Positions 16,018-28,017 of a stretch of DNA of 64,000 nucleotides are shown here, piece after piece. The notes beneath the pieces are model-generated. The model was not told the origin of the DNA, did not search any database, and saw only the letters and a list, made by a program, of their open reading frames with translations. This stretch comes from Clostridia bacterium (GTDB lineage: Bacteria; Bacillota; Clostridia; Oscillospirales; RGIG577): positions 62,001-126,000 of the forward strand of contig JAFQZS010000003.1 of NCBI GenBank assembly GCA_017405765.1, written 5' to 3'. How positions within the stretch are numbered: position 1 is the first letter of the stretch; the number at the start of each line of letters is the position of its first letter. The position numbers and the translations under genes are program-made.

Positions 16018-16104
16018 GCGGATATGGCGGAATTGGCAGACGCGCATGGTTCAGGTCCATGTGAATGCAAGTTCATGCAGGTTCAAGTCCTGTTATCCGC
16101 ACCA
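16018..16104 (+). tRNA. tRNA-Leu (anticodon CAG), integration target of the adjacent element
   Basis: This is an 87-nt class II tRNA. The anticodon stem CATGG/CCATG encloses TTCAGGT (anticodon CAG), a long variable arm is present and CCA is encoded. Its last 14 bases plus two more recur at 22877-22892, showing that the element starting here is inserted in its 3' end and has restored the gene. Confidence 0.96.
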
Positions 16105-16106
16105 AA
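16091..16106 (+). repeat. attL core of the integrated element
   Basis: TGTTATCCGCACCAAA, the 3' end of tRNA-Leu, is repeated exactly at 22877-22892. Tyrosine recombinases commonly integrate in this way. Confidence 0.88.
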
Positions 16107-16140
16107 AACGGCAGTTTTTTAACTGCCGTTTCTTTTTCTC
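16105..16140 (+). terminator. intrinsic terminator supplied by the element behind tRNA-Leu
   Basis: AAACGGCAGTT and AACTGCCGTTT pair around TTTT, followed by CTTTTTC. The original chromosomal terminator of the tRNA now lies beyond attR at 22888-22930. Confidence 0.85.
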
Positions 16141-16151
16141 AAAGTGCCCGA

Positions 16152-16251
16152 AATCCAGTGTTTATGCGGGTTTTTGGCGTCTTCGGCAGAATGTTAAATC
16201 TTGTTAAATCAAGCTGAAATATCGTTCGGTAGCACACGGTAGCACACTAAA
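16152..16251 (+). repeat. left-end arm repeats shared with the right end
   Basis: Three blocks recur in direct orientation near attR. Block A (16152-16173, containing CCAGTGTTTATGCGGG) matches 22839-22860. Block B (16191-16212, two copies of TGTTAAATC) matches 22770-22791. Block C (16216-16251, two copies of GTAGCACAC) matches 22796-22830. They are candidate arm-type sites for the integrase or Xis. Confidence 0.65.
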
Positions 16252-16374
16252 AAACAGCCCCAAAACCGAGGCAGCAAGCGGGTTTCTCGGGCATAAAAAA
16301 TCGGCGGTAGCACACTTTTAAACGGCACACGTATTTTTACACGAAAAAAGGCGTATTTCATGCATAAAACAAAC

Positions 16375-16401
16375 GGCGGCAGACCTTTAAAATCTGCCGC
16401 C
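16375..16401 (-). terminator. terminator-like hairpin at the end of the leftward element operon
   Basis: GGCGGCAGA and TCTGCCGCC pair around nine bases. On the minus strand the hairpin is followed by GTTTGTTTT. The 664 bp between tRNA-Leu and the sigma-like gene hold only this, the arm repeats and the 55-65-bp repeats; I see no gene there. Confidence 0.55.
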
Positions 16402-16410
16402 TTTGTTCGT

Positions 16411-16712
16411 TCCTGTCCTGAATTTGCCCTGTTCTCAGGACAAAAACGCCGCCTCATATTCTCTTTCGTATCCTGTTTCGCACCTGTTAGCAGGTGGATA
16501 TAACGTGCCTTCGTTCATGCTTGCGCCCTGTTTTGAGCCTGTTAGCAGGGAACGCGCCGCCCGTCGCATACGGCCTTCGCCCACTGTTACGCTCACTGTT
16601 AGCAGTCAGGCGAACCGCCCGTCCGACGCCGTTTATATGGTCGTGTATGCTGTTACGACGCTGTTACCAACGTGACGCGCCGCCCGTGGAAGCGCGCTTC
16701 TCGCCGTTTTCT
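16411..16712. repeat. five degenerate ~55-65-bp tandem repeats with TTAG-loop hairpins
   Basis: Units begin near 16411, 16471, 16526, 16582 and 16649. Each carries CTGTT, then 7-10 bases later CTGTTAGCAG or a variant, and most have a GC block similar to ACGCGCCGCCCGT. In three units the core folds into a small hairpin with a TTAG loop, such as CACCTG-TTAG-CAGGTG at 16481-16496. No reading frame runs convincingly through the repeats. Confidence 0.6.
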
Positions 16713-16768
16713 GCCCGTTTGATCGGTGGGCATATTATATGCCGCCTTCGGTAAACGCCTATCTCACG

Positions 16769-17587
16769 TCATTGTGCGCCCTCTCGCGCATATCGGACTT
16801 CCGTCACGCCCATGCCCTCACGCTTTGCGATGCGGTCATACGCCGCCTTGAGCATAGCTTGCCGCTTCCCGTATGACAGATATCGTATCTGCGCTTCCCG
16901 TGCGATCTTGCGGCGTACCGCAGCCGCTTCGGCCGAAAGACCGAACATATACATCGACTGCCACAGCGCGCTGTCGTGATAATGTCTGCCGTAATCCTCA
17001 TACAGTCTCCGAAGCTCCGGCGCGCTCCGCAGCCTTCGCAAGGCCGCATTGTACTGCGCCGCGATATTGGAACGCTCAACGTCCCATGCCGCCGCGATCT
17101 CACCAAGCGATACGCCGTGCCAGAAGCGAAGCTTTATTATATGCCTCTGCGTTTCGGTAAGCCGAAGCATTGACGCGAATATCCTTTCCTGTACGTCCGA
17201 AAGCTCCGCCGCCTCGTCTGCGGCTGAAGCGCTCTCATCGGCTATCGTATCAAAAAGCGTTATGCTCTCGTCTTCGTCTACGTATGCATCGCCGCTCACT
17301 TCACTGTACACTCCCTTGCGAAGCGACAGTCCCGACTCTCTTGCGGCAGCATTGCGAAGGTGAAAGCCAAGATACGTAGTGAATGCAAATCCCTTATTGG
17401 GATCATACGCCTTCACCGCATCGAGAAAACCGAAATACGCGCACTGCGTTATATCCTCGGCATCAATCCAGATAGGCAGGGCAAGCCGCTTCGCATATCC
17501 GCGCATGAGCTTCATGCAAAGCCGCTCCACCGCTTCCCACAGCGGCGTTAAATACTCCATATGCCCCGCCTGTACCATCAGTGCCAT
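16769..17587 (-). CDS. sigma-70-family RNA polymerase sigma factor of the element
   Basis: This protein should redirect host RNA polymerase. Region 2 is visible as ITQCAYFGFLDAVKAYDPNK followed by GFAFTTYLGFHLRNAAARE. Region 4 appears as TETQRHIIKLRFWHGVSLGE followed by IAAAWDVERSNIAAQYNAALRRL. The C-terminal ~90 residues are basic and not part of the canonical factor. Two starts are possible: the ATG at 17587, five bases after AAGGA, used here (272 residues), or a TTG at 17608 (279 residues). It is the last gene of the leftward operon, next to the repeat-rich left end. Such factors occur on clostridial phages and integrative elements. Its target promoters are unknown. Confidence 0.8.
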   Translation of the reverse strand: MALMVQAGHMEYLTPLWEAVERLCMKLMRGYAKRLALPIWIDAEDITQCAYFGFLDAVKAYDPNKGFAFTTYLGFHLRNAAARESGLSLRKGVYSEVSGDAYVDEDESITLFDTIADESASAADEAAELSDVQERIFASMLRLTETQRHIIKLRFWHGVSLGEIAAAWDVERSNIAAQYNAALRRLRSAPELRRLYEDYGRHYHDSALWQSMYMFGLSAEAAAVRRKIAREAQIRYLSYGKRQAMLKAAYDRIAKREGMGVTEVRYAREGAQ

Positions 17588-17612
17588 ATATTCCTTGTTC
17601 TTTTCCAAAATC

Positions 17613-17646
17613 CGCGCCCCCCGTGATATAATATTGTCGGGGCGCG
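17613..17646. repeat. GC-armed palindrome with AT-rich centre
   Basis: CGCGCCCC (17613-17620) and GGGGCGCG (17639-17646) flank an AT-rich centre containing GATATAATATTG. It lies between the 58-residue gene and the sigma-like gene and could be a regulatory hairpin or a promoter with operator arms. Confidence 0.4.
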
Positions 17647-17657
17647 CGGCATGATTG

Positions 17658-17834
17658 TTATCGGGCTTTCATGTGTGCATGAAGAGAACGCTTCTGCAAG
17701 GCGCGCACACGCAGTTCTTCGGCTAAGAGCATACCGAAGTATTTGAAGTCAACATAGCCCTCGCCGTAACAGCGTTCAATCTGTGCGGCTTTTCTTTCCG
17801 CAGCCAGCAATGCATTTAAAAATTGTCCGTCCAT
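17658..17834 (-). CDS. small element protein of 58 residues, function unknown
   Basis: This short reading frame starts at the ATG at 17834, seven bases after GAAAGGAG, and ends 24 bp before the palindrome ahead of the sigma-like gene. The protein begins MDGQFLNALLAAERKAAQIE, includes CYGEGYVDFKYFGMLLAEEL and ends in a basic tail. It appears alpha-helical and has no motif I recognise. The strong ribosome site and its place in a tight operon just after the helicase gene support it as real. It may belong to the replication or regulatory module. Confidence 0.65.
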   Translation of the reverse strand: MDGQFLNALLAAERKAAQIERCYGEGYVDFKYFGMLLAEELRVRALQKRSLHAHMKAR

Positions 17835-17853
17835 GTTTTTCTCCTTTCGCCGA

Positions 17854-19119
17854 TTATTCGATTATGCCCGTGGCGGGGAACATCTTCATGCGGATTTCCC
17901 CGCATTTGCCGTGCCTGTTCTTAGCCACTTTAAAGAGCAGGCCTTTATAGTCGCCCAGTTTGCCGCCCGTGCCCTCTGTTTCCGTGTTCGAAAGCAATAT
18001 AACGCCGTCGGCATCCTGCTCCATTGCGCCGCTGTCCCGAAGATGAAATGCTTCAGGCGCACCCTTTGCCGCTTCGCGGTTAAGCTGAGCAAGGCATATA
18101 ATCGGAATGTTAAACTTTACGGCAATCTGTTTAAGCTCCGCCGAAAAGTCGCTCATAACGTCGTACCGTGAGCGCGTATCTCCCGTCTGACGCGATAAAA
18201 GCCCGATATAATCAATTACTACAAGCTCAGGCTTGTCCTTCATACGGCGTATCTGTGCGCTTATCTGCGCCGTCGTAGGCCTTCCCGTTATGAGCTTGAA
18301 GCGGCTTTTATTAAGCCTCGTTATTGCATCCACAACGCGGGCGCGTTCCTCTTTGTCCATATCTCCGTTTAAAATCTTAAAATACCGCACAGCAGCGTCA
18401 CGCGATACGCGGCGCGCCGCTATTTGGTCTGCGCCCATCTCCATATTGAAGTACAGCACGGGAACGCCGCGCGCCGCCGCGTTCTGCGCTATTGCCAGCG
18501 CGACCGTCGTTTTTCCAACGGCCGGACGCGCCGCCAATATGTATAGGCCACCTTTTACAAGACCGCCGCCCAAAGCTTTATCAAGCATCTTAAAGCCCGT
18601 TGCGACGATCACCTTTTCGTTGCTCGAAAGCCTTTTCGTCAGCGCGATAAGGTCGGAATTATAAGCCGCTTCCCTCGCATCTGTGTCCTTTCCCTTTGCC
18701 GCTTCAAGCTCGGACAATACAGCGTCGGTCACCTCGCCGCTGTCCTTGCCGGTCATGAGATCTTCGTTTATCTGTAAGCTCAACTCATACAGCCGTCTTT
18801 GCGCGTTCTTCTCTTTCAGCATGAGGCAGTAATCATAAAGCCCCGCCGTCGTCGGTACGGCTTCCATGGCGGCCATACATATCTTTTTATCAATCGGCTT
18901 GCCCTTCTTCTCAAGCAAGGCCATTACCGTAAGATGATCAATATTTGCCCCCTCGTCGGACAGCGCATACGCGGCCTCGAACATGTCCCTGTATTCGGGA
19001 GTCATGAAGTCCTCGGCGCAAATCGTCTCCGACGCTTTTATCAAGGCACCCTCTCCGTCGAGAAGGATTGCTCCGATGATAGCTTGCTCAATATCTTGAG
19101 CATCAAAATTATTTATCAT
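17854..19119 (-). CDS. DnaB-like replicative helicase of the element
   Basis: This is a 421-residue hexameric helicase of the DnaB family. The N-terminal domain (residues 1-~130, starting MINNFDAQDIEQAIIGAILL) is followed by the RecA-like ATPase. That domain shows Walker A ARPAVGKTT near residue 207, Walker B LVVIDYIGLL near 290, CLAQLNREAA and LRDSGAMEQDAD. It would unwind element DNA during replication. Carrying its own helicase suggests that the excised element can replicate. The start codon overlaps the end of the 53-residue gene upstream. No separate primase gene is visible. Confidence 0.93.
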   Translation of the reverse strand: MINNFDAQDIEQAIIGAILLDGEGALIKASETICAEDFMTPEYRDMFEAAYALSDEGANIDHLTVMALLEKKGKPIDKKICMAAMEAVPTTAGLYDYCLMLKEKNAQRRLYELSLQINEDLMTGKDSGEVTDAVLSELEAAKGKDTDAREAAYNSDLIALTKRLSSNEKVIVATGFKMLDKALGGGLVKGGLYILAARPAVGKTTVALAIAQNAAARGVPVLYFNMEMGADQIAARRVSRDAAVRYFKILNGDMDKEERARVVDAITRLNKSRFKLITGRPTTAQISAQIRRMKDKPELVVIDYIGLLSRQTGDTRSRYDVMSDFSAELKQIAVKFNIPIICLAQLNREAAKGAPEAFHLRDSGAMEQDADGVILLSNTETEGTGGKLGDYKGLLFKVAKNRHGKCGEIRMKMFPATGIIE

Positions 19120-19270
19120 GCTCTAAGTCCTTTCTTAAGTTTTTTTCCGCTTTAATTTCGGCAATTGCTTTTTTGGCAATCTCATGACAAGACTTTCTCT
19201 TCACTATGCCGTCACCAATCTGATTAGCGATATCCCGTAGCCAATAATCTGAGATGTTCTCTTTAAACAA
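19109..19270 (-). CDS. 53-residue element protein coupled to the helicase
   Basis: This small frame begins with TTG at 19270, eight bases after GAAAGGA, and its stop overlaps the first eleven bases of the helicase gene. The protein starts MFKENISDYWLRDIANQIGD and ends in a Lys/Glu-rich helix; no known domain is recognised. The ribosome site and the overlap with the DnaB-like gene argue that it is translated and coupled to the helicase. A role in helicase loading is only a guess from position. Confidence 0.6.
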   Translation of the reverse strand: MFKENISDYWLRDIANQIGDGIVKRKSCHEIAKKAIAEIKAEKNLRKDLEHDK

Positions 19271-19288
19271 AGTTAAAATCCTTTCTTG

Positions 19289-19321
19289 ATAAGCGGGGAG
19301 CGCGCTTTTGCGGCGCGCCCC
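19289..19321. repeat. strong GC hairpin ahead of the 53-residue gene
   Basis: Arms of about 11 bases (GCGGGG...GCGCGC with GCGCGC...CCCGC) enclose TTTTGCG. There is no T-run on either side, so it is more likely a structural or replication-origin element than a terminator. Confidence 0.4.
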
Positions 19322-19359
19322 CGCCGTCTTATGTATTATGTCTTATGTATTTACTGTAT

Positions 19360-19426
19360 GTAATCCGACCATAGGTACCTGTGTAATCCGACCATAGGTA
19401 CCTGTGTAATCCGACCATAGGCAGCT
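19360..19426. repeat. three 23-bp direct repeats (iteron-like)
   Basis: Copies start at 19360, 19383 and 19406, with core GTAATCCGACCATAGG. The first two are identical through GTACCTGT and the third diverges at its end. Directly repeated 22-23-mers within replication genes are typical of iterons bound by an initiator protein. The likely binder is the winged-helix protein encoded 30 bp away. Confidence 0.65.
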
Positions 19427-19456
19427 ATGCCTCTTTTGCATCGGCAAAAATTATAA

Positions 19457-19744
19457 TTACTTCAAAAGCTTAAACTGTGTCGTCATTCCGCTTTTGGATT
19501 TATATGCTATAATGCCATGCCGACAAAGCTCATCACGTGCTGAGAATAGCGTCTTATTGCCTGTGGCAGTATAATCTTCCAAGAGAGACGTTGACGCATA
19601 AAACCATTCGCTCCAATAAGTTGCATTGTTTAAATGGACAAGCGTTTGCCACAACATGCGCGCTGATTTGCTCAACTTTAATTTGCGTCCAGCTTCTATA
19701 CAGTTTTTCATCTCATCCATGTAATTTTTATTACTTTTGCTCAT
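19457..19744 (-). CDS. winged-helix protein, possible replication initiator of the element
   Basis: This is a 95-residue protein resembling the N-terminal winged-helix of phage replisome organisers and plasmid initiators. The visible pattern is LSKSARMLWQTLVHLNNATY, then SEWFYASTSLLEDYTATGNK, then a recognition-helix-like stretch LFSARDELCRHGIIAYKSKS. It lacks the larger C-terminal part usual in such proteins, so it may be a minimal or shortened initiator. The start is the ATG at 19744 after GGGAAG. The iteron-like repeats lie directly downstream, before the helicase module. The initiator role is inferred from fold and position. Confidence 0.6.
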   Translation of the reverse strand: MSKSNKNYMDEMKNCIEAGRKLKLSKSARMLWQTLVHLNNATYWSEWFYASTSLLEDYTATGNKTLFSARDELCRHGIIAYKSKSGMTTQFKLLK

Positions 19745-19762
19745 TTTGGCACTTCCCTCTTG

Positions 19763-19779
19763 TCAAGGCCGTGCCTTGA
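19763..19779. promoter_or_regulatory. palindrome upstream of the winged-helix gene
   Basis: TCAAGGC-CGT-GCCTTGA is a perfect 7+3+7 dyad 19 bp ahead of the start codon, and a possible operator. Confidence 0.4.
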
Positions 19780-19824
19780 GTGATAAAGTATAAATATAGG
19801 ATTACCCGTTTCGGCGGGACTTGC

Positions 19825-19879
19825 ATACTTCTATTCCGGCGCACCGCCAAGTGACAAGTCGGAATAGAAGTATTTTTTT
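19825..19879 (+). terminator. long plus-strand hairpin with T-run inside the minus-strand operon
   Basis: ATACTTCTATTCCG (19825-19838) pairs perfectly with 19860-19873 around 21 bases and is followed by TTTTTT on the plus strand only. This orientation opposes the surrounding genes, so it may end a short antisense or regulatory RNA. Confidence 0.55.
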
Positions 19880-19936
19880 GCCCCGACGCCGCGTTCTGAA
19901 AAGGCGGCTCTCTTGCTGCCACGATCACGCCCCCTC

Positions 19937-20128
19937 TCATACGCGCCTCTCGCGGCACCAATTCTCAAATGCGGTCTTTTCGACCTTGAAGTTCTTACCG
20001 ATCTTCAGCGCGGGGAAGTCGTGTCTGTAGAATAACTGCCTTGCAGTCGGTATCGAGCAGCCCAAGCACTGCGCCACTTGCTTCGTGGTATAGAATACCG
20101 TCGTAAGCTTTACTTCGTTTTCGTTCAT
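19937..20128 (-). CDS. excisionase-like helix-turn-helix protein
   Basis: This is a 63-residue DNA-binding protein of the excisionase/MerR-like winged type. The segment FYTTKQVAQCLGCSIPTARQ is the helix-turn-helix. LKIGKNFKVEKTAFENW matches the wing and final helix of small Xis proteins. It would bend attachment-site DNA and favour excision with the element integrase, or act as a regulator like AlpA. It is the third gene of the leftward operon, opposite the repressor, the usual place for an Xis gene in islands and temperate phages. Confidence 0.75.
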   Translation of the reverse strand: MNENEVKLTTVFYTTKQVAQCLGCSIPTARQLFYRHDFPALKIGKNFKVEKTAFENWCRERRV

Positions 20129-20140
20129 ACAATGCTCCTT

Positions 20141-20437
20141 TTAAATATTATCTTCGCGTCCGTGCGCTGCGGCGAAATTGACCTTCGCCCGCGCGCTTAA
20201 TTTACGCTTCGTTTCCTCGCTTATTTCACGGGGCTTTTTAACCCCTATAAGCTTTTTGGGGAAAGTATACGTCCTTGTGTGTTCGTCCTCGGAAATCAGG
20301 GTAACTGTCGAGGATTTTGCCCTCATTTCATCGAGTCTGCGCATGAGCCTTTTGTCACACGTATAACATACGGCGTTTTCCTCGCCGTCGTTATACGTAA
20401 TCACGGTCTCACGCTCATATTTTGATAAATTTGCCAT
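20141..20437 (-). CDS. conserved hypothetical protein of the element
   Basis: This is a 98-residue protein of unknown function. It contains YNDGEENAVCYTCDKRLMRR, a segment with two cysteines that may bind metal or nucleic acid, followed by a predicted strand-rich part (STVTLISEDEHTRTYTF). It ends in a basic helix containing KLIGVKKPREISEETKRKLS. Proteins of this layout are frequent on Firmicute integrative elements, but I know of no assigned role. It starts 14 bp after the end of the small upstream gene and is co-transcribed with the Xis-like gene. Confidence 0.7.
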   Translation of the reverse strand: MANLSKYERETVITYNDGEENAVCYTCDKRLMRRLDEMRAKSSTVTLISEDEHTRTYTFPKKLIGVKKPREISEETKRKLSARAKVNFAAAHGREDNI

Positions 20438-20450
20438 ATATCCGCCTTTC

Positions 20451-20615
20451 TTATGATTTGCCTTCGGTCTGCAGCTTCTTTTCCGCCTTTCGCTCCCAAT
20501 AACGCTTGTTATTTTCGGCGATGCGCGCCTTGTTTTTCCGACGGTATTCTCGGTAATACTCTCTTTGCACTTCCTTGACCGTCTGCTCCAACTTGGAATT
20601 ATTCATGTGATACAT
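20451..20615 (-). CDS. small basic helical protein, first gene of the leftward operon
   Basis: This is a 54-residue, highly charged protein beginning MYHMNNSKLEQTVKEVQREY and containing REYRRKNKARIAENNKRYWE. It is rich in Arg, Lys, Glu and Tyr and should be one long helix. The ATG at 20615 is chosen because GAAAGGA lies eight bases upstream; the longer reading to 20669 would run through that site. It follows the early promoter directly. No function is recognised. Confidence 0.6.
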   Translation of the reverse strand: MYHMNNSKLEQTVKEVQREYYREYRRKNKARIAENNKRYWERKAEKKLQTEGKS

Positions 20616-20663
20616 CTGATACATCCTTTCGTAATTATTTTTTGTTTTGTCTTGACTTAGCTT

Positions 20664-20690
20664 GGTCACAATGCTATTATAATTGTGAAC
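20664..20690. promoter_or_regulatory. element operator 1 (27-bp dyad on the early promoter)
   Basis: GGTCAC-N15-GTGAAC. Its centre falls on the -10 box of the leftward promoter. Confidence 0.7.
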
Positions 20691-20704
20691 AAAATAAAAA
20701 TCAA
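20676..20704 (-). promoter_or_regulatory. leftward early promoter of the element
   Basis: Minus-strand TTGATT (20699-20704), a 17-base spacer and a perfect TATAAT (20676-20681), 61 bases ahead of the first leftward start codon. Confidence 0.85.
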
Positions 20705-20710
20705 GCGAAA

Positions 20711-20737
20711 GGTCACTCTTAAGATAATATTGTGACC
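20711..20737. promoter_or_regulatory. element operator 2 (27-bp dyad)
   Basis: GGTCAC-N15-GTGACC, a perfect 6-bp arm pair just upstream of the leftward -35 box. Confidence 0.75.
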
Positions 20738-20751
20738 AAATCGAAATATTG

Positions 20752-20778
20752 GGTCATATTTCAGATGAATTCGTGACC
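20752..20778. promoter_or_regulatory. element operator 3 (27-bp dyad near the repressor gene)
   Basis: GGTCAT-N15-GTGACC, 29 bp before the repressor start codon, suited to autoregulation. Confidence 0.7.
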
Positions 20779-20806
20779 AAAAAGATTGGGCAAGGAGGAT
20801 GCGCGT

Positions 20807-21598
20807 ATGAAAGACCAAAAAAAAGCAGTAGAAAACATTGTTGATTTACAAAGGTTAAAAGATTTAATTGACAAGAAAAAATCGCGGCAAGCTATAGCCG
20901 ACAAGATCGGTTGTGATGTATCGCTGATAACGCGCCATTATAACGCACAGAAGGCGGTGCCGATAACCTTTTTGAAAAAGTATGCTGAATACTTCAATGT
21001 ATCTGCCGATTATTTATTAGGCTTGACCGACGCACCGACGAACGACAAAGATTTACGTTTCGTATGTGACTATACGGGATTGAGCGAAGAAGCGGTAGAG
21101 AGTATCAAATATGCCGAGAAAAATACGCTGCTTTCCGCAGAATCAAATTATCTCGACATAAAAAAAGTGGATGAGTTCATAAGAAGTGCAAAGCCGATCA
21201 TATCTCAAATACTCAAAAGTGAGCAGTTTTACGGTTTAATAGCAAAGCAACTGATTATTAGAGCGGACAAAGTGCGGCAGTTTGAAATACTGGAGAAGGT
21301 TGATAAGCTTTCTGAGACTGTTTTCTCAAAAGAGGGCAAAACACCTACGGATAAGGATTGGGAAGATGCGCTGAAAGCATACATCGAGGTTTTACAATTA
21401 AATTATGAGACGAAAGCGTATGCCTATGATATGCAGGAAGATTTAAAAAAAATATTTCCGCACTTTAGCGATATGCCAAGCAAGGATAAGATAGACAAGC
21501 TACAAAGATTTATCCACAAGAGTACTTACTTAAGAGAATTGGAAAAAGCAACAAAGAATAACACGGGAGGTGCGGACAATGGCAAAGAAGAACGCTAA
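20807..21598 (+). CDS. XRE-family phage-type repressor
   Basis: This is a 263-residue regulator with an N-terminal Cro/CI-type helix-turn-helix (residues ~15-75, containing SRQAIADKIGCDVSLITRHY, then FLKKYAEYFNVSADYLLGLT). A long helical C-terminal part of unknown fold follows. The ATG at 20807 follows AAGGAGG; an upstream start would overlap that site. It is divergent from the replication/xis operon, and the gap holds three 27-bp dyads, so it probably silences that operon as CI or Stl-type repressors do. No S24 peptidase domain is present, so induction by self-cleavage is unlikely. Release by another protein, as for Stl of satellites, is plausible but unproven. Confidence 0.88.
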   Translation: MKDQKKAVENIVDLQRLKDLIDKKKSRQAIADKIGCDVSLITRHYNAQKAVPITFLKKYAEYFNVSADYLLGLTDAPTNDKDLRFVCDYTGLSEEAVESIKYAEKNTLLSAESNYLDIKKVDEFIRSAKPIISQILKSEQFYGLIAKQLIIRADKVRQFEILEKVDKLSETVFSKEGKTPTDKDWEDALKAYIEVLQLNYETKAYAYDMQEDLKKIFPHFSDMPSKDKIDKLQRFIHKSTYLRELEKATKNNTGGADNGKEER

Positions 21599-22754
21599 CG
21601 GCGACGGCGGCATATTTTATAGCAAGTCCCAAAAGTTGTGGCGCGGTCAGATAACCATAGGCTACGACGAGAACGGCAATCAGAGACGCAAGAGCGTTTC
21701 GGGCAAGAACCCGCAGGAAGTGAAACAGAAACTGAAACAAATCGAATACGGCATCTTCTCCGGCGAATTCGTCGATAAGAGCAATATAACGATATACCAC
21801 CTTGCAAAACAGATGATCGTTGACAAATTCAATCTGAATGAGATAAAAGAAAACACCTACCTTACGCATTTGTCCACGCTGAAGCGGCTGCAGCCCATAT
21901 ACAATACGCCGCTTCAGAAGGCTAACGAAACGCAGATAAGAGCATATCTGCAAGGTCAGATAGGCAAATCAAATTCCATACTGCAGAAGGACTTCCAGCT
22001 TCTTAATGCCACTTTCAAAGAGGCGGTAAGGCGCGATATAATCACAAAGAACCCCATGGATCATATAAAGCAGCCGAAATCGAAGCAGAAGCGCGAAGCG
22101 GTCAGAGCTTTCACGCTGGAAGAGCAGAACAAGCTCCTTTACGTCCTTCAGACCGAAGATATAAAGTACAGCCAACAGATGCTTTTATCTATGTTCACGG
22201 GAATGCGTATGGGCGAAGTGAATGCCCTGACGAAGCGGGACGTAAATCTTATATTCAACAGCGTGTCCATAAACAAAACGATATCACGCGGCGAAAAGGG
22301 TAAGGCCGTTTTGGGCGATACGGCAAAGACTTACGCCGGAAACAGAACGATATTTATCACCGAGGACGTACAGACGATACTTGCGGAGTGCATAGAGTGC
22401 GCCGAGGGAGATATGCTCTTTACCACCGAGCGCGGCGGCCTAGTTACGAGCAATCAGGTCAATATGGAACTTGCGCGCGTCCTGAAAAAATATAAGATAG
22501 TCGATGAGACGGTACGCGGTAAAGTGTCGTGTCACTCTCTGAGACACACATACGCAACGCGCATGATAGAAGGCGGTATGCAGCCGAAGGTATTGCAGAA
22601 GCTATTAGGGCATACGGATATCAAGATAACCATGAACACATACTGCGATGCTTTCGATAAATTTCAGAACGACAATATCAATATCGCAAACGAATATTTG
22701 AAGCAAAACGGCCTCACACTGACCCGAAAGAAAAGCATTCCCGAAGCCATATAG
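21579..22754 (+). CDS. int: tyrosine recombinase integrase of the element
   Basis: This is a 391-residue site-specific recombinase of the Tn916/lambda Int type. The N-terminal arm-binding domain (residues ~1-60, beginning MAKKNANGDGGIFYSKSQKL) precedes a SAM-like core-binding domain (~65-165). The catalytic domain shows Arg in MFTGMRMGEVNAL, His-Arg in CHSLRHTYATR, His in LLGHTDIKI and the nucleophile Tyr in MNTYCDAF. The ATG at 21579 follows GGGAGG and overlaps the repressor gene by 20 bp, so the two are coupled. The gene sits beside attR. The arm-binding domain fits the repeated arm blocks near both ends. Confidence 0.95.
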   Translation: MAKKNANGDGGIFYSKSQKLWRGQITIGYDENGNQRRKSVSGKNPQEVKQKLKQIEYGIFSGEFVDKSNITIYHLAKQMIVDKFNLNEIKENTYLTHLSTLKRLQPIYNTPLQKANETQIRAYLQGQIGKSNSILQKDFQLLNATFKEAVRRDIITKNPMDHIKQPKSKQKREAVRAFTLEEQNKLLYVLQTEDIKYSQQMLLSMFTGMRMGEVNALTKRDVNLIFNSVSINKTISRGEKGKAVLGDTAKTYAGNRTIFITEDVQTILAECIECAEGDMLFTTERGGLVTSNQVNMELARVLKKYKIVDETVRGKVSCHSLRHTYATRMIEGGMQPKVLQKLLGHTDIKITMNTYCDAFDKFQNDNINIANEYLKQNGLTLTRKKSIPEAI

Positions 22755-22769
22755 GGCGGCATTATGGGG

Positions 22770-22860
22770 ATGTTAAATCTTGTTAAATCAAATCAAAATA
22801 TCGTTGCGTAGCACACGGTAGCACACTAAATTTTAAAAAATCCAGTGTTTATGCGGGTTT
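22770..22860 (+). repeat. right-end arm repeats
   Basis: Blocks B (22770-22791), C (22796-22830) and A (22839-22860) recur from the left end in the same orientation. Their order relative to the core differs: core-A-B-C on the left and B-C-A-core on the right. Confidence 0.65.
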
Positions 22861-22876
22861 ATCGCGGGTATTGTTT

Positions 22877-22892
22877 TGTTATCCGCACCAAA
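22877..22892 (+). repeat. attR core
   Basis: Exact copy of the 16-bp attL core; the tRNA-Leu tail without the rest of the gene. Confidence 0.88.
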
Positions 22893-22932: not shown

Positions 22933-23074
22933 GCGGGCAACAGGACTTGAAGCTTAAGAAGGCGGCCGACGAAAAGAAAACAGTCCGGTGGACTGTTTTC
23001 AGGAGGCCGGAGCGCAGTCGGCTGAGCCGCCAAGCCGGAAGATAAAAAGCTCACGCGGTCCTGTCGCCCGCACC
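22933..23074. repeat. structured repeat bounded by tRNA-tail-like inverted ends
   Basis: GCGGGCAACAGGAC (22933-22946) pairs with GTCCTGTCGCCCGC (23058-23071, followed by ACCA) with one mismatch. Inside are AAAACAGTCC-GGT-GGACTGTTTT and a GGCGGCCGAC/GTCGG...GCCGCC stem. The right end reads like a tRNA T-arm and acceptor tail with CCA, and the left end like the reverse complement of one. The interval 22893-23673 has no protein gene; it holds this repeat, a hairpin at 23081-23111, a promoter and a leader. Confidence 0.6.
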
Positions 23075-23080
23075 ATATAA

Positions 23081-23673: not shown

Positions 23674-26600
23674 ATGAGACGGAAAGCAAAACAGTTGATG
23701 GGCATACTGCTTTGCCTTGCGATGGTGCTTAGCTTGACGCCGGGGATGAGCCTGACGGCGTATGCGGACGACACGGATGAGACCGAAAAAACGCAGGTAA
23801 GCGTCCGGAAGGTCTGGGAGGACAACAACGACAAGGCGCAGATGCGGCCACAGAGCTTAGAGGTGCAGCTGTACGCGGACGGCGAGGCACTGGGAAGCCC
23901 TGTGACACTAAACGAGGAAAACGGCTGGAGCTACAGCTGGAGCGATCTTTCGAAGTACGTCAATGAAGACGAACAGACCGGCGTTCAGCGGGCGATTGTC
24001 TACACGGTGGCTGAGACCGAGATTCCGGAAGGCTATGTCGGCGAGGTTTCGGGCAGTGCCGAAGAAGGCTTCGTGATTACAAACGTCTTTGTGATTGAAA
24101 AGACGCAGGTAAGCGTCCGGACGGACTGGGAAGACAACAACGACAAGGCGCAGATACGGCCGCAGAGCATAGAGGTGCAGCTGTACGCGGACGGCGAGGC
24201 AATGGGAAGCCCTGTGACACTGAACGAGGAAAACGGCTGGAGCTACAGCTGGAGCGATCTTTCGAAGTACGTCAATGAAGACGAACAGACCGGCGTTCAG
24301 CGTGCGATTGTCTACACGGTGGATGAGACCGAGATTCCGGAAGGCTATGCCGCCGAGGTTTCGGGCAGTGCCGAAGAAGGCTTCGTGATTACAAACATCT
24401 TTGTGATTGAAAAAACGCAGGTAAGCGTCCGGACGGACTGGGAAGACAACAACGACAAGGCGCAGATGCGGCCGCAGAGCATCCGGGTGCAGCTGTACGC
24501 GGACGGCCGGGCATTGGGAAGCCCGGTGACACTGGATGAGGAAAACGGCTGGAGCTATAGCTGGAGCGATCTTACGAAGTACGTCTATGAAGGCGGCCTG
24601 AGGGCGATTGAATACACGGTGGATGAGACCGAGATTCCGGAAGGCTATGTCGGCGAGGTTTCGGGCAGCGTCGAAGCGGGCTTCGTGATTACAAACACCT
24701 ATGAGACCGGCACGCTTATCATCGAGAAGGAATTCGATATCGCGCCCTGGGAGCCTTTCGTCCCGGACGATTCGTATGTGGACGTCCCGGTCGTCATTAC
24801 ATGGAACGACAACAACAACGCGGACGGCAACCGTCCCAAGAACGCAACCGTGAGACTGCTGGCGAACGGCACGGAGGTTGCCAACGCCGAACTCAATTCG
24901 GGCAACGGCTGGAGATATACCTTCACCGGTATGCCGAGGCTCGACGAGAACAGGGAAAAGATCGAATATACGATCACCGAGGATCCGATCGATTGGTACA
25001 AAGACCAGATAAGCGGATTCAACATCCGTAACAACTATGAGCCCGAGCTGACCGAAGCTGCCGTCAAAATGATCTGGGACGACGCCGACAACGAGACGGG
25101 GACGAGACCGAAAAGCATTGCGATGACGCTGAGCAACGGCATTACCGTACTGCTGAGCGATAATAACGGCTGGACCGCCACCGTCAAAAATCTCCCCACG
25201 AGGCTGAATGGAGAACCTGCCAATTATACCTGGACCGAGCAGAAGGTGGCGGGTTACGACAAGATTTCCGAGGTGACCGAGGGTACCTTAACCACCTTCG
25301 TGAACAAAAGACGGGTACAGTCGGCGTCACCGACCGTGGACCGTATCGAGTATGAGTTTGGTGAGTATGAGATCCCGCTGAGAGCCAGGGTCTGCGAATC
25401 GGCCGCTCCGACGATCTCAATTACCGCCGGAGTGGAATGGGACGGCGATGATGATTATTATCAATTGCTCAGGCCGGAGTCCGTGCAGTTGATCCTGATG
25501 GGGGACGGCGAACCGGTCGGTGAACTGAAAACGGTGGAAGCCTCCTCCTGGGAAGCAACGTGGTACGATCTGCCGGCTCAAAACAGCGACGGTAATCCGA
25601 TCGAGTACACCGTAAAGCAGATGGAACCGATCTCCGCTTATACGACGACATGCGACGGCCTGACGGTGACAAATACCCTGAAGACGGGCAGCCTCAGCGT
25701 GAAGATTTCCCTCTCGGGCGTTCCGGAAGAGGCAGACCTGAGCAAGCTTCGGCTTGCCATTGACGGTCCGGATCCGCGGCTGGAGAAGACGCTGACCTAC
25801 GAGGATGTAATGAACGGAACCGTAGACCTGGGCAGGGTGCTCGAGGGCGCTTACATGATCCGCGATACAAATGCGGACACGCTTATCGAAGGCTATGTGA
25901 TGGACGCCGAGAACAGCAAAGTGGCCGACGCCATTTACGTCTCGGGCGGTGAAGACTCTGAGCTGGAGTTCAAATACACATGGAAACTTCCGGAGCCTCT
26001 GGATGCGGAAGCGGATGAAGACTACGATCCCTTTGCCAATATCGGCGATCTGTCCTTTGAGATCCTCGGACCCGACGCTCTGATGCCGCTGACGATCCGT
26101 TACTCCGATTTCACGAACGGCAAGTATGAGATTCCGGATCTGGCGCCCGGCGTTTACACCGTGGTCGAGCGCAATGCGGAAAAGCTGGTGAAGTATTACA
26201 CGCTGACGAGCAACAGCATGACGGGCATGGCTGTTGAAGTGAAGGCGGGCGGGACGGCCACCGCGAAACTGTTCAACCAATACGTGCCCCTGCCGACGCC
26301 TGAACCCGACGCCGAGTTCGTCGACATCCCGGTGACCGTGACCTGGAACGACAACAACAACGCGGACGGCAACCGGCCCGAATCCGTCACGGCCCGCCTG
26401 TATGCCGACGGCGTGGAAGTGGACAGCCATGTGCTGACGGCCGCCGAAAACTGGCAGTTCACCTTTATCGAGAAGCCGCGCCATCAGGAGGACAACAAGA
26501 CTGAGATCGTCTACACGGTCAATGAAGATGCGGTTCCGATGTACAGAGCAGTTGTCAAAAGCTACAGCATCGTGAACGAATATGAGCCCGAATTAATAAG

Positions 26601-28017
26601 CGCTTCTGTTTCTAAAAGATGGAATGATAACAACAACCAGCAGAATCTCCGGCCTGATTCCATTGCGATGAGCCTGTTAGACGGACAGAAGGTCGCCAAA
26701 GTGGTCGTGCTTAGCGAAGCCAACGGCTGGACCGCCGTCGTCAACGATCTCCCCACCGTGGTGAACGGACAGGAAGCACAGTATGAATGGAAAGAACAGC
26801 AGGTCAACGGCTACACGCTCGAAAACGTGGAGCAACGGGGGAACCACATGACTTTCACCAACGCGGTCTGGGAGCGTCCTGAGAACAACCCTACAATTAC
26901 TCCCAACAATCGAACTTATGATGATACTGAGAAGCCGCTTGTTACTGTTTCCGGCGAACTGACCGGCAGTACAACAAAGTACGCTCTTGGCTCAGATGCG
27001 GCCACTGCCCCTGAAGCATCTGCATATACCACAGCCATCCCTACAGCCACCAGCGCCGGAACCTACTATGTATGGTACAAGACCGAGGGCGACGAAAGCC
27101 AAAACGACAGCAGTGCGGTTTGTGTGATCGTCACCATCAGCGCAAAGTTCTCCGGCGGAGGAGGCGGCGGAGGCGGTGGCGGCGGCTCATCCTCCGTCAA
27201 TAACCCCGTCGGCACCGGTACCTTCGAGGGCGGCTCCGTGAAGCTTAGCACCGAGGGCGCCAGGGCGGGCAGCACCGTGACCATAACCGTCACCCCCGAA
27301 GAGGGCTATCGGGCGGATAAGGTCACCGTCACCGACAAGAACGGCAGCGTCATCCCCGTGGCACAAAACGCCGACGGCACCTACCGCTTCACGATGCCAA
27401 ACTCCCCCGTTACCGTTACACCCGCCTTTGAGAAGATCGCGGACCGGACCGACACCGACGTCTGTGACAAATTCCGCGATGTCTCCGAGGACGCATGGTA
27501 TCACGACGCGGTCCGCTGGGCCGTGGACAACGGTATCATGAACGGCGTGGCTTCGGACCTCTTCGATCCGGACGGCGCCGCCACGCGGGCCATGGTAGTC
27601 ACCATGCTCTGGCGGCTTGAAGGCGAGCCTGCGGGCGCGGGCATTTCATTTGACGACGTGCCTGACGGCGCGTGGTACGCGCCCGCTGTAAGCTGGGCGG
27701 CACAGAATGAGATCATAAGAGGGCTGTCGGACGAAAGCTTCGACCCCGATGCGCCCGTCACCCGGGAGCAGCTTGCGGCGATCCTGTATCGGTACGCGCA
27801 GAGCAAGGGAAAAGGGTTCACCGGCGCATGGGCCTTCCCGCTCGATTACAGCGACGCGGCGGACGTGTCCGAGTACGCATATGAGGCCATGTGCTTTATG
27901 ACCATGAACGGTGTCATCACCGGCATGGACGACGGAACGCTGGCTCCGAAGGACAACGCCACCCGCGCGCAGATAGCCGCGATATTCATGCGCTTCTGCG
28001 AGGAGACGGCAGGATAA
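23674..28017 (+). CDS. giant surface adhesin with Cna-B repeats and three SLH domains
   Basis: This is a 1447-residue secreted protein with a signal peptide ending AYA (residue 31), held to the cell wall by three C-terminal SLH domains (~1265-1447). Between them lie about eight Cna-B-type beta-sandwich domains, marked by VSVRKVWEDNNDKAQ, ITWNDNNNADGNRP and similar motifs. The first three are nearly identical 104-residue copies. Next come an MBG-like domain (~1073-1159), a nine-glycine linker and an InlB-B-repeat-like domain. Cna-B modules form stiff stalks, often with internal isopeptide bonds. It has no LPXTG signal, so anchoring is by SLH. Ile codons are mostly ATT/ATC, unlike resident genes, and it lies beside the integrated element. 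Confidence 0.92.
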   Translation: MRRKAKQLMGILLCLAMVLSLTPGMSLTAYADDTDETEKTQVSVRKVWEDNNDKAQMRPQSLEVQLYADGEALGSPVTLNEENGWSYSWSDLSKYVNEDEQTGVQRAIVYTVAETEIPEGYVGEVSGSAEEGFVITNVFVIEKTQVSVRTDWEDNNDKAQIRPQSIEVQLYADGEAMGSPVTLNEENGWSYSWSDLSKYVNEDEQTGVQRAIVYTVDETEIPEGYAAEVSGSAEEGFVITNIFVIEKTQVSVRTDWEDNNDKAQMRPQSIRVQLYADGRALGSPVTLDEENGWSYSWSDLTKYVYEGGLRAIEYTVDETEIPEGYVGEVSGSVEAGFVITNTYETGTLIIEKEFDIAPWEPFVPDDSYVDVPVVITWNDNNNADGNRPKNATVRLLANGTEVANAELNSGNGWRYTFTGMPRLDENREKIEYTITEDPIDWYKDQISGFNIRNNYEPELTEAAVKMIWDDADNETGTRPKSIAMTLSNGITVLLSDNNGWTATVKNLPTRLNGEPANYTWTEQKVAGYDKISEVTEGTLTTFVNKRRVQSASPTVDRIEYEFGEYEIPLRARVCESAAPTISITAGVEWDGDDDYYQLLRPESVQLILMGDGEPVGELKTVEASSWEATWYDLPAQNSDGNPIEYTVKQMEPISAYTTTCDGLTVTNTLKTGSLSVKISLSGVPEEADLSKLRLAIDGPDPRLEKTLTYEDVMNGTVDLGRVLEGAYMIRDTNADTLIEGYVMDAENSKVADAIYVSGGEDSELEFKYTWKLPEPLDAEADEDYDPFANIGDLSFEILGPDALMPLTIRYSDFTNGKYEIPDLAPGVYTVVERNAEKLVKYYTLTSNSMTGMAVEVKAGGTATAKLFNQYVPLPTPEPDAEFVDIPVTVTWNDNNNADGNRPESVTARLYADGVEVDSHVLTAAENWQFTFIEKPRHQEDNKTEIVYTVNEDAVPMYRAVVKSYSIVNEYEPELISASVSKRWNDNNNQQNLRPDSIAMSLLDGQKVAKVVVLSEANGWTAVVNDLPTVVNGQEAQYEWKEQQVNGYTLENVEQRGNHMTFTNAVWERPENNPTITPNNRTYDDTEKPLVTVSGELTGSTTKYALGSDAATAPEASAYTTAIPTATSAGTYYVWYKTEGDESQNDSSAVCVIVTISAKFSGGGGGGGGGGGSSSVNNPVGTGTFEGGSVKLSTEGARAGSTVTITVTPEEGYRADKVTVTDKNGSVIPVAQNADGTYRFTMPNSPVTVTPAFEKIADRTDTDVCDKFRDVSEDAWYHDAVRWAVDNGIMNGVASDLFDPDGAATRAMVVTMLWRLEGEPAGAGISFDDVPDGAWYAPAVSWAAQNEIIRGLSDESFDPDAPVTREQLAAILYRYAQSKGKGFTGAWAFPLDYSDAADVSEYAYEAMCFMTMNGVITGMDDGTLAPKDNATRAQIAAIFMRFCEETAG
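23791..24708 (+). repeat. three tandem 312-bp coding repeats
   Basis: Copies start at 23791, 24103 and 24415 and are almost identical in DNA. The third is shorter near its end. They encode Cna-B domains 1-3 and indicate recent duplication or exchange. Confidence 0.85.

Follow-up and report, generated by a model that had tools for sequence, protein, structure and literature searches.

A putative phage satellite with its own sigma factor in a tRNA-Leu gene of a Clostridia bacterium

We analysed a 64,000-nucleotide stretch of a Clostridia bacterium genome (GenBank assembly GCA_017405765.1, contig JAFQZS010000003.1, positions 62,001 to 126,000; hereafter the window, to which coordinates without a locus name refer). 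It contains a 6.8-kb island, delimited by attachment-site (att) repeats, that encodes an integrase, a replicative helicase and a sigma factor. The integration target is a tRNA-Leu(CAG) gene (16018–16104, + strand), identified with ARAGORN and Rfam. The original prediction had described 16-bp repeats at the two ends, one of them in the tRNA-Leu tail; the repeat, TGTTATCCGCACCAAA, is exact and has just two copies in the whole 64-kb window, as the attL core inside the tRNA 3′ end (16091–16106, +) and as the attR core (22877–22892, +), against a chance expectation of about 5e-5 for an exact 16-mer common to both end regions. Two longer repeats are shared by the ends, one of 61 bp (90% identity; 16191–16251 and 22770–22830) that includes GGTAGCACAC motifs and one of 29 bp (93%; 16151–16179 and 22838–22866). 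Their presence at both ends fits integrase arm sites, and comparison of the ends gave left arm-type sites at 16151–16251, where GGTAGCACAC occurs twice with the same motif spacing as in a related island (L013, below), and right arm-type sites at 22770–22866. In a genome of the same genus (G002, contig C24), the same tRNA-Arg/tRNA-Leu(CAG) pair as in the window is joined directly to a terminator, the sequence that lies to the right of attR in the window, with which the attR flank agrees. This locus (L056) is the empty attB of the window island, the kind of site that had been proposed as a check in related genomes. The tRNA-Leu(UAG) gene is unoccupied in genome G001 (L058), where the window's own genome has a second island, L012. 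The window island evidently inserted into the tRNA-Leu(CAG) tail through its own tyrosine integrase.

The layout is divergent, with the integrase and a repressor on the + strand and all other island genes on the − strand. The integrase (21570–22754, 394 aa) matches PF00589 (2e-21) and is 54% identical to that of a distant island, L084; the Cro/CI-type repressor (20786–21598) matches phrog_8 (4e-14). Between the divergent operons a repeat search found three operator-like GGTCAC..GTGACC repeats (20664–20781). Leftwards from there lie orf72 (20451–20669), a small basic protein of 72 aa (phrog_14214) with weak relatives in the distant islands L025 and L084; orf98 (20141–20437, 98 aa), a phage protein without assigned function (phrog_1709, 1e-12); a Xis/AlpA-like helix-turn-helix protein of the HTH_17 type (19937–20128; PF12728, 2e-9; TIGR01764); and a 95-aa winged-helix protein resembling replication initiators or helicase loaders (19457–19744; phrog_19658 'replication initiation', 2e-5; phrog_186, 2e-4). 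Adjoining the initiator-like gene, repeat analysis found three 23-bp iterons, TGTAATCCGACCATAGGTACCTG (19359–19427), a candidate replication origin. They are followed by orf53 (19109–19270, 53 aa, without assigned function), a DnaB-type replicative helicase of 421 aa with N and C domains (17854–19119; PF00772, 1e-15; PF03796, 2e-54), orf58 (17658–17834, 58 aa, without assigned function) and, closing the operon, a sigma-70 family factor of 279 aa (16769–17608) with profile matches in regions 2 and 4 and a C-terminal extension bearing the motif YLSYGKRQA. The gene calls and orientations of the original prediction hold, with four small leftward open reading frames (ORFs) and the operator-like repeats added, and its satellite-like divergent plan is supported. 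None of the island ORFs had a credible family match to genes for capsid, terminase, tail, lysis, a relaxase or conjugation, in agreement with the absences reported earlier, and megablast of the island against phages gave no match. The non-coding stretch 3′ of the sigma gene holds small inverted repeats in which the motif CTGTTA appears six times (16470–16690); the motif is partly kept in the equivalent stretch of L013, and the cluster is a candidate packaging or regulatory site. An Rfam scan of it returned nothing above threshold, and a CsrC match, whose 21 bits fall well short of the gathering score of 61, was taken as chance.

Two near relatives share the core of this plan. L013 is a collinear, intact copy in the tRNA-Leu(UAG) gene of G002, so that the search for the same gene order in tRNA-Leu of a relative, suggested with the original prediction, succeeded; identities to the window are 89% for the integrase, 84% for orf98, 75% for both repressor and sigma, 71% for orf53, 70% for DnaB and 64% for orf58. 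L012, the element of about 8.5 kb in tRNA-Leu(UAG) of the window's own genome, differs in its integrase and repressor and shares DnaB (78%), sigma (66%) and the initiator (48%). Ratios of nonsynonymous to synonymous change (dN/dS) between the window and L013 were 0.10 for the integrase, 0.20 for the repressor, 0.30 for dnaB and 0.31 for sigma, and ranged from 0.10 to 0.49 across all genes with unsaturated synonymous change; the initiator and Xis were left out of this reading because their synonymous change was saturated. The iterons of the window, L012 and L013 all differ in sequence yet occupy the same location, and of the proteins it is the initiator that is conserved least, a pattern that fits an initiator matched to its own origin. 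Given the collinear L013, the core-sharing L012 and the purifying dN/dS values, we conclude that the island is, as far as its sequence tells, a conserved unit present in several genomes and sites and not a remnant. Relatives with a relaxase or full phage modules at this position, raised earlier as a sign of a deletion remnant, did not appear among the near relatives: both are intact, one collinear and the other with the same core.

At the order level, near relatives of DnaB were found in this genus only. We therefore rejected DnaB as a family hallmark and traced further relatives through the sigma factor. Its profile matches SigA/RpoS over regions 2 and 4 (E 1e-27), and for that reason it is probably a working sigma factor rather than a regulator of the region-4-only kind. 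An AlphaFold model added little to the profile match, with a predicted local distance difference test score (pLDDT) of 63 and with Foldseek matches that, among those listed, were sigma factors, none below E 1e-3. At the class level, 16 of 391 genomes had a sigma match at E < 1e-30. Distant relatives (about 25–36% identity) lie in other tRNA islands, mostly of 8–11 kb, and a tyrosine integrase stands beside a replication module in 13 of the 17 judged sigma regions outside the window's own genome (L081, L090 and L091, at contig edges, were excluded from the 17). In each island of the order-level set the integrase and repressor oppose the replication gene, which is a D5/DUF5906 primase-helicase in L024, an NrS-1-like primase-polymerase in L025, a DnaG zinc finger with a large unassigned protein in L026, a Lin1244/DnaD-like protein in L027 and a G2P-like Rep in L028. 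Exact repeats set the boundaries of the distant islands: 46 bp in tRNA-Lys for L086 (8.4 kb), 17 bp in tRNA-Arg for L084 (10.1 kb), 61 bp in tRNA-Thr for L024 (10.5 kb), 74 bp in tRNA-Thr for L025 (10.8 kb), 27 bp for L028 (8.0 kb) and 65 bp in tRNA-Ala for L087 (17.7 kb). L084 combines an integrase and a Xis (60%) similar to those of the window with a different replicase, which points to exchange of modules. A family in Clostridia, as originally predicted, is thus supported by L013, L012 and the sigma-bearing islands at order and class level; the DnaB-plus-iteron module proposed as its mark is present in the window island but does not hold for the family, whose distant members rely on other replicases. 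The sigma factor appears to be the constant hallmark of these relatives, with replication modules that vary. Several carry defence-like cargo (L032, 1877–2683 and 627–1052; L024, 12100–12528; L025, 11226–11919; L026, 1114–1922), comprising Abi_2, HIRAN proteins, a RelE-like/helix-turn-helix pair and a ribbon-helix-helix/PIN pair, of which the two pairs and the HIRAN protein of L032 were assigned by eye.

The genes next to the sigma factor in these elements place it in the company of phage late genes, in line with the earlier suggestion that it could transcribe late genes of the island or of a helper. In IMG/VR, alignment queries found sigma records where scans with a single sigma or DnaB sequence had matched nothing. 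A tape measure protein is carried by L035–L038, L041, L113–L116 and L121–L123, the small terminase subunit (TerS) by L039 and L114, and a portal by L040 and L113, some of these assignments resting on BLAST to a profiled relative. L128 (619–2091) and L131 (5636–6996), circular contigs of 8.3–8.5 kb in which no terminase was found, encode a scaffold and major head protein (phrog_422). The sigma gene lies directly 5′ of the late genes in most such elements and directly after some of them in L128, L131 and L122; in L091, a chromosomal phage-like locus, the large terminase subunit (TerL) immediately precedes it. Large terminase (phrog_2) went undetected in 27 of 28 IMG/VR sigma records, a count that is only indicative because many records are fragmentary and phrog_2 may miss divergent terminases; the sole match, at L117, belongs to a PBSX-like prophage that is separate from the island and situated beyond its recombinase. 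The sigma tree intermingles minimal elements with those that bear late genes. One lineage (L035–L038, L115, L116 and L121) combines an integrase, repressor, replication protein and sigma with its own tape measure and a gp10-like protein, and no large terminase was found in it. Could these be satellites that supply their own tail ruler?

We also looked at a possible carrier. G002 contains a PBSX-like prophage (L102/L103, contig C5, 16.4–33.9 kb; L157/L158) with sheath, tape measure, portal and TerS recognised by eye and TerL by profile, the last with an 81% identical counterpart in G001. It has no recognised integrase or replication genes, and a relative (TerL 56%) sits beside the sigma island L117. 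The prophage could be a defective phage or a gene-transfer agent, and could act as a carrier. A DUF1492-type regulator, putatively of late genes, adjoins its terS, and a similar DUF1492 protein lies beside the sigma gene in L012 (36% over 76 aa, E 2e-10), which would fit, circumstantially, hijacking of late control. A packaging site common to L013 and this prophage was sought, and only chance-length matches were found.

The sigma factor also occurs on circular DNA. L032 (MT836843; 8,514 bp) closes through a 124-bp end overlap into a circle of 8,390 bp that encodes an integrase, a repressor, sigma, Abi_2, a HIRAN-like protein and, where the replication gene would stand, a DUF6291 protein. Downstream of the integrase gene is the 3′ end of a tRNA (GTTCAAGTCCCGTTTGCCGCACCA), as expected of an attP. 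The record derives from human faeces in Mexico. This source and the overlap length fit a virome study in which particles were 0.22-µm-filtered and treated with chloroform and DNase, and reads were assembled with IDBA-UD at k 20–125 (PMC8361208). Circular IMG/VR contigs with the sigma are L112, in which a tRNA tail adjoins the integrase gene, L126, L128 and L131 (8.3–10.1 kb); L122, with a 28-bp end overlap only, is less surely circular. Tape measure, portal, scaffold or head genes beside the sigma in some relatives make it thinkable that the window island is what deletions left of a temperate phage, now without late genes and doing no more than persist. We regard this as very improbable: free circles have like size and content, minimal and late-gene-bearing forms mix on the sigma tree, the island genes are under purifying selection, and the two intact near relatives keep the same core plan at other sites, one in full collinearity. 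A full prophage was rejected on the same grounds of collinearity, selection and free circles.

Taken together, these results make it fairly likely, in our judgement, that the island is an integrative element of the phage-satellite type whose sigma factor drives late promoters, probably of a helper phage. It appears to be a satellite, broadly defined, with att repeats, an integrase, a regulator and replication genes and no full virion gene set. Derepression, perhaps by a helper phage, would lead to excision; the excised island would replicate as a circle of about 6.8 kb; its sigma would redirect the host's RNA polymerase towards late promoters, those of the helper being the likeliest; and helper particles would carry the satellite. 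The role given to sigma is modelled, by analogy, on P4 delta acting on P2 late genes. Alternatively, the sigma of a satellite may serve as an interference device that diverts RNA polymerase from helper or rival promoters, or may regulate the island's own genes only. Interference of satellites with the reproduction of their helpers is known (PMC10803314). However, in elements with late structural genes the sigma gene mostly immediately precedes them, as an activator gene would, and we consider the interference account improbable.

Several observations weigh against a helper-dependent satellite with a late-gene sigma. For the window copy, packaging, induction and a helper phage rest on inference, and the late promoters of the sigma are postulated. 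We recognised no cos or pac site, TerS or capsid-remodelling gene in the island and no convincing large terminase in its own assembly. The sigma relatives are distant (again, about 25–36% identity), and no recognised integrase lies near the chromosomal matches L078, L079, L082 and L085. The tie of MT836843 to PMC8361208 was inferred from source, country and assembler, the accession not being printed there, and DNA prepared from virus particles may contain contaminants; two records of the same deposit, L033 and L034, resemble plain chromosomal DNA. An island without a packaging gene, in a genome without an evident prophage, might instead be a small integrative mobilizable element or integrative plasmid, self-excising and self-replicating, conjugated through an origin of transfer and a foreign relaxase, with a sigma that regulates its own genes; the integrase, Xis, initiator, DnaB and iteron module would be equally useful to such an element. 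However, family scans of the island ORFs found no relaxase, for which reason an integrative conjugative or mobilizable element with its own relaxase was rejected, a sigma search of 72,556 plasmids gave no match, sigma relatives adjoin phage late genes in many elements, and one relative (MT836843) is a circle from a virus-particle-type deposit. We give the mobilizable account a small but real chance and retain the satellite reading.

Within known satellites the island has no ready place. It resembles Staphylococcus aureus pathogenicity islands (SaPIs) and other phage-inducible chromosomal islands (PICIs) in its att site with direct repeats (in tRNA or other sites), integrase, divergent repressor, excision and replication genes and small size (the PICI mean is 9.5 kb; PMC10803314). 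Unlike them, it has DnaB, an initiator and iterons in place of Pri-Rep and a sigma gene last in the operon, and no island ORF gave a TerS, Ppi or Cpm family match, so the PICI membership suggested by the original prediction is not supported. Capsid-forming PICIs find a parallel in the distant relatives L128 and L131, which encode scaffold and major head protein with terminase undetected, whereas the window island has no capsid or packaging genes. In P4-like satellites the activator delta is of the zinc-finger type. This protein is homologous to P2 ogr and promotes the late genes of both P2 and P4 (PMC8628076). A satellite-borne activator of helper and own late genes is thus a functional parallel, but the island's candidate is a sigma-70 factor, and psu, sid, delta, epsilon and alpha are missing from its Pfam matches. 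Phage-inducible chromosomal minimalist islands (PICMIs) share few genes, a size of 6–7 kb and an integrase, AlpA-like helix-turn-helix protein (PF12728) and replication gene; their model requires a DUF3987/DUF5906-type primase and a fis site (PMC10803314), whereas the island has DnaB, no primase and a tRNA-Leu site. Because it lacks defining features of each, the island is not a canonical PICI, P4, capsid-forming PICI or PICMI. Among phage regulators, Xpf of PBSX, ArpU and the DUF1492-type proteins of Firmicute prophages are likewise sigma-like and open late operons, but they resemble region 4 only, whereas the island sigma contains region 2 as well as region 4 and accompanies satellites.

Much is known of satellites in staphylococci, enterobacteria and vibrios, and little of those in gut Clostridia. 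We see an even chance that the sigma-bearing elements form an undescribed, widespread group of Clostridia satellites with a late-gene sigma as hallmark, in which replication, integration, cargo and a virion subset (none, tape measure, TerS, portal, or scaffold plus capsid) are swapped freely. In such a group the sigma would be retained for the control over helper late transcription that it confers on the satellite. Our text searches of the open-access literature turned up no account of satellites that carry a sigma factor; most subscription papers and preprints lay outside these searches. As the constant gene, sigma offers a searchable hallmark for elements that tools based on primase, TerS or capsid may miss, and a testable hypothesis in which a satellite takes over its helper by altering the promoters read by host RNA polymerase. 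Relatives that have tape measure or capsid genes, but in which large terminase went undetected, suggest that single virion parts can come from satellites.

Two features lie to the right of the island. A block of 100–250 bp lies to the right of the attR flank in all three islands (window 22933–23077; L012 13441–13688; L013 14150–14292) and recurs at the end of L056; it opens with the T-arm of tRNA-Leu in inverted copy (ACAGGACTTGAA), contains a hairpin (GAAAACAGTCCGGTGGACTGTTTTC) and closes with a further tRNA-Leu 3′ end (GGTCCTGTCRCCCGCACCA). The hairpin core has only two copies in the window's own genome, each beside an island. Since a near copy of the hairpin is present at the empty site, the block belongs to the host tRNA-Leu locus, presumably as a tRNA-derived repeat or an old att scar. 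Beyond it, 23674–28017 encodes a secreted-looking repeat protein of 1447 aa with, by eye, apparently Cna-B-like repeats and S-layer homology (SLH) domains at its end.

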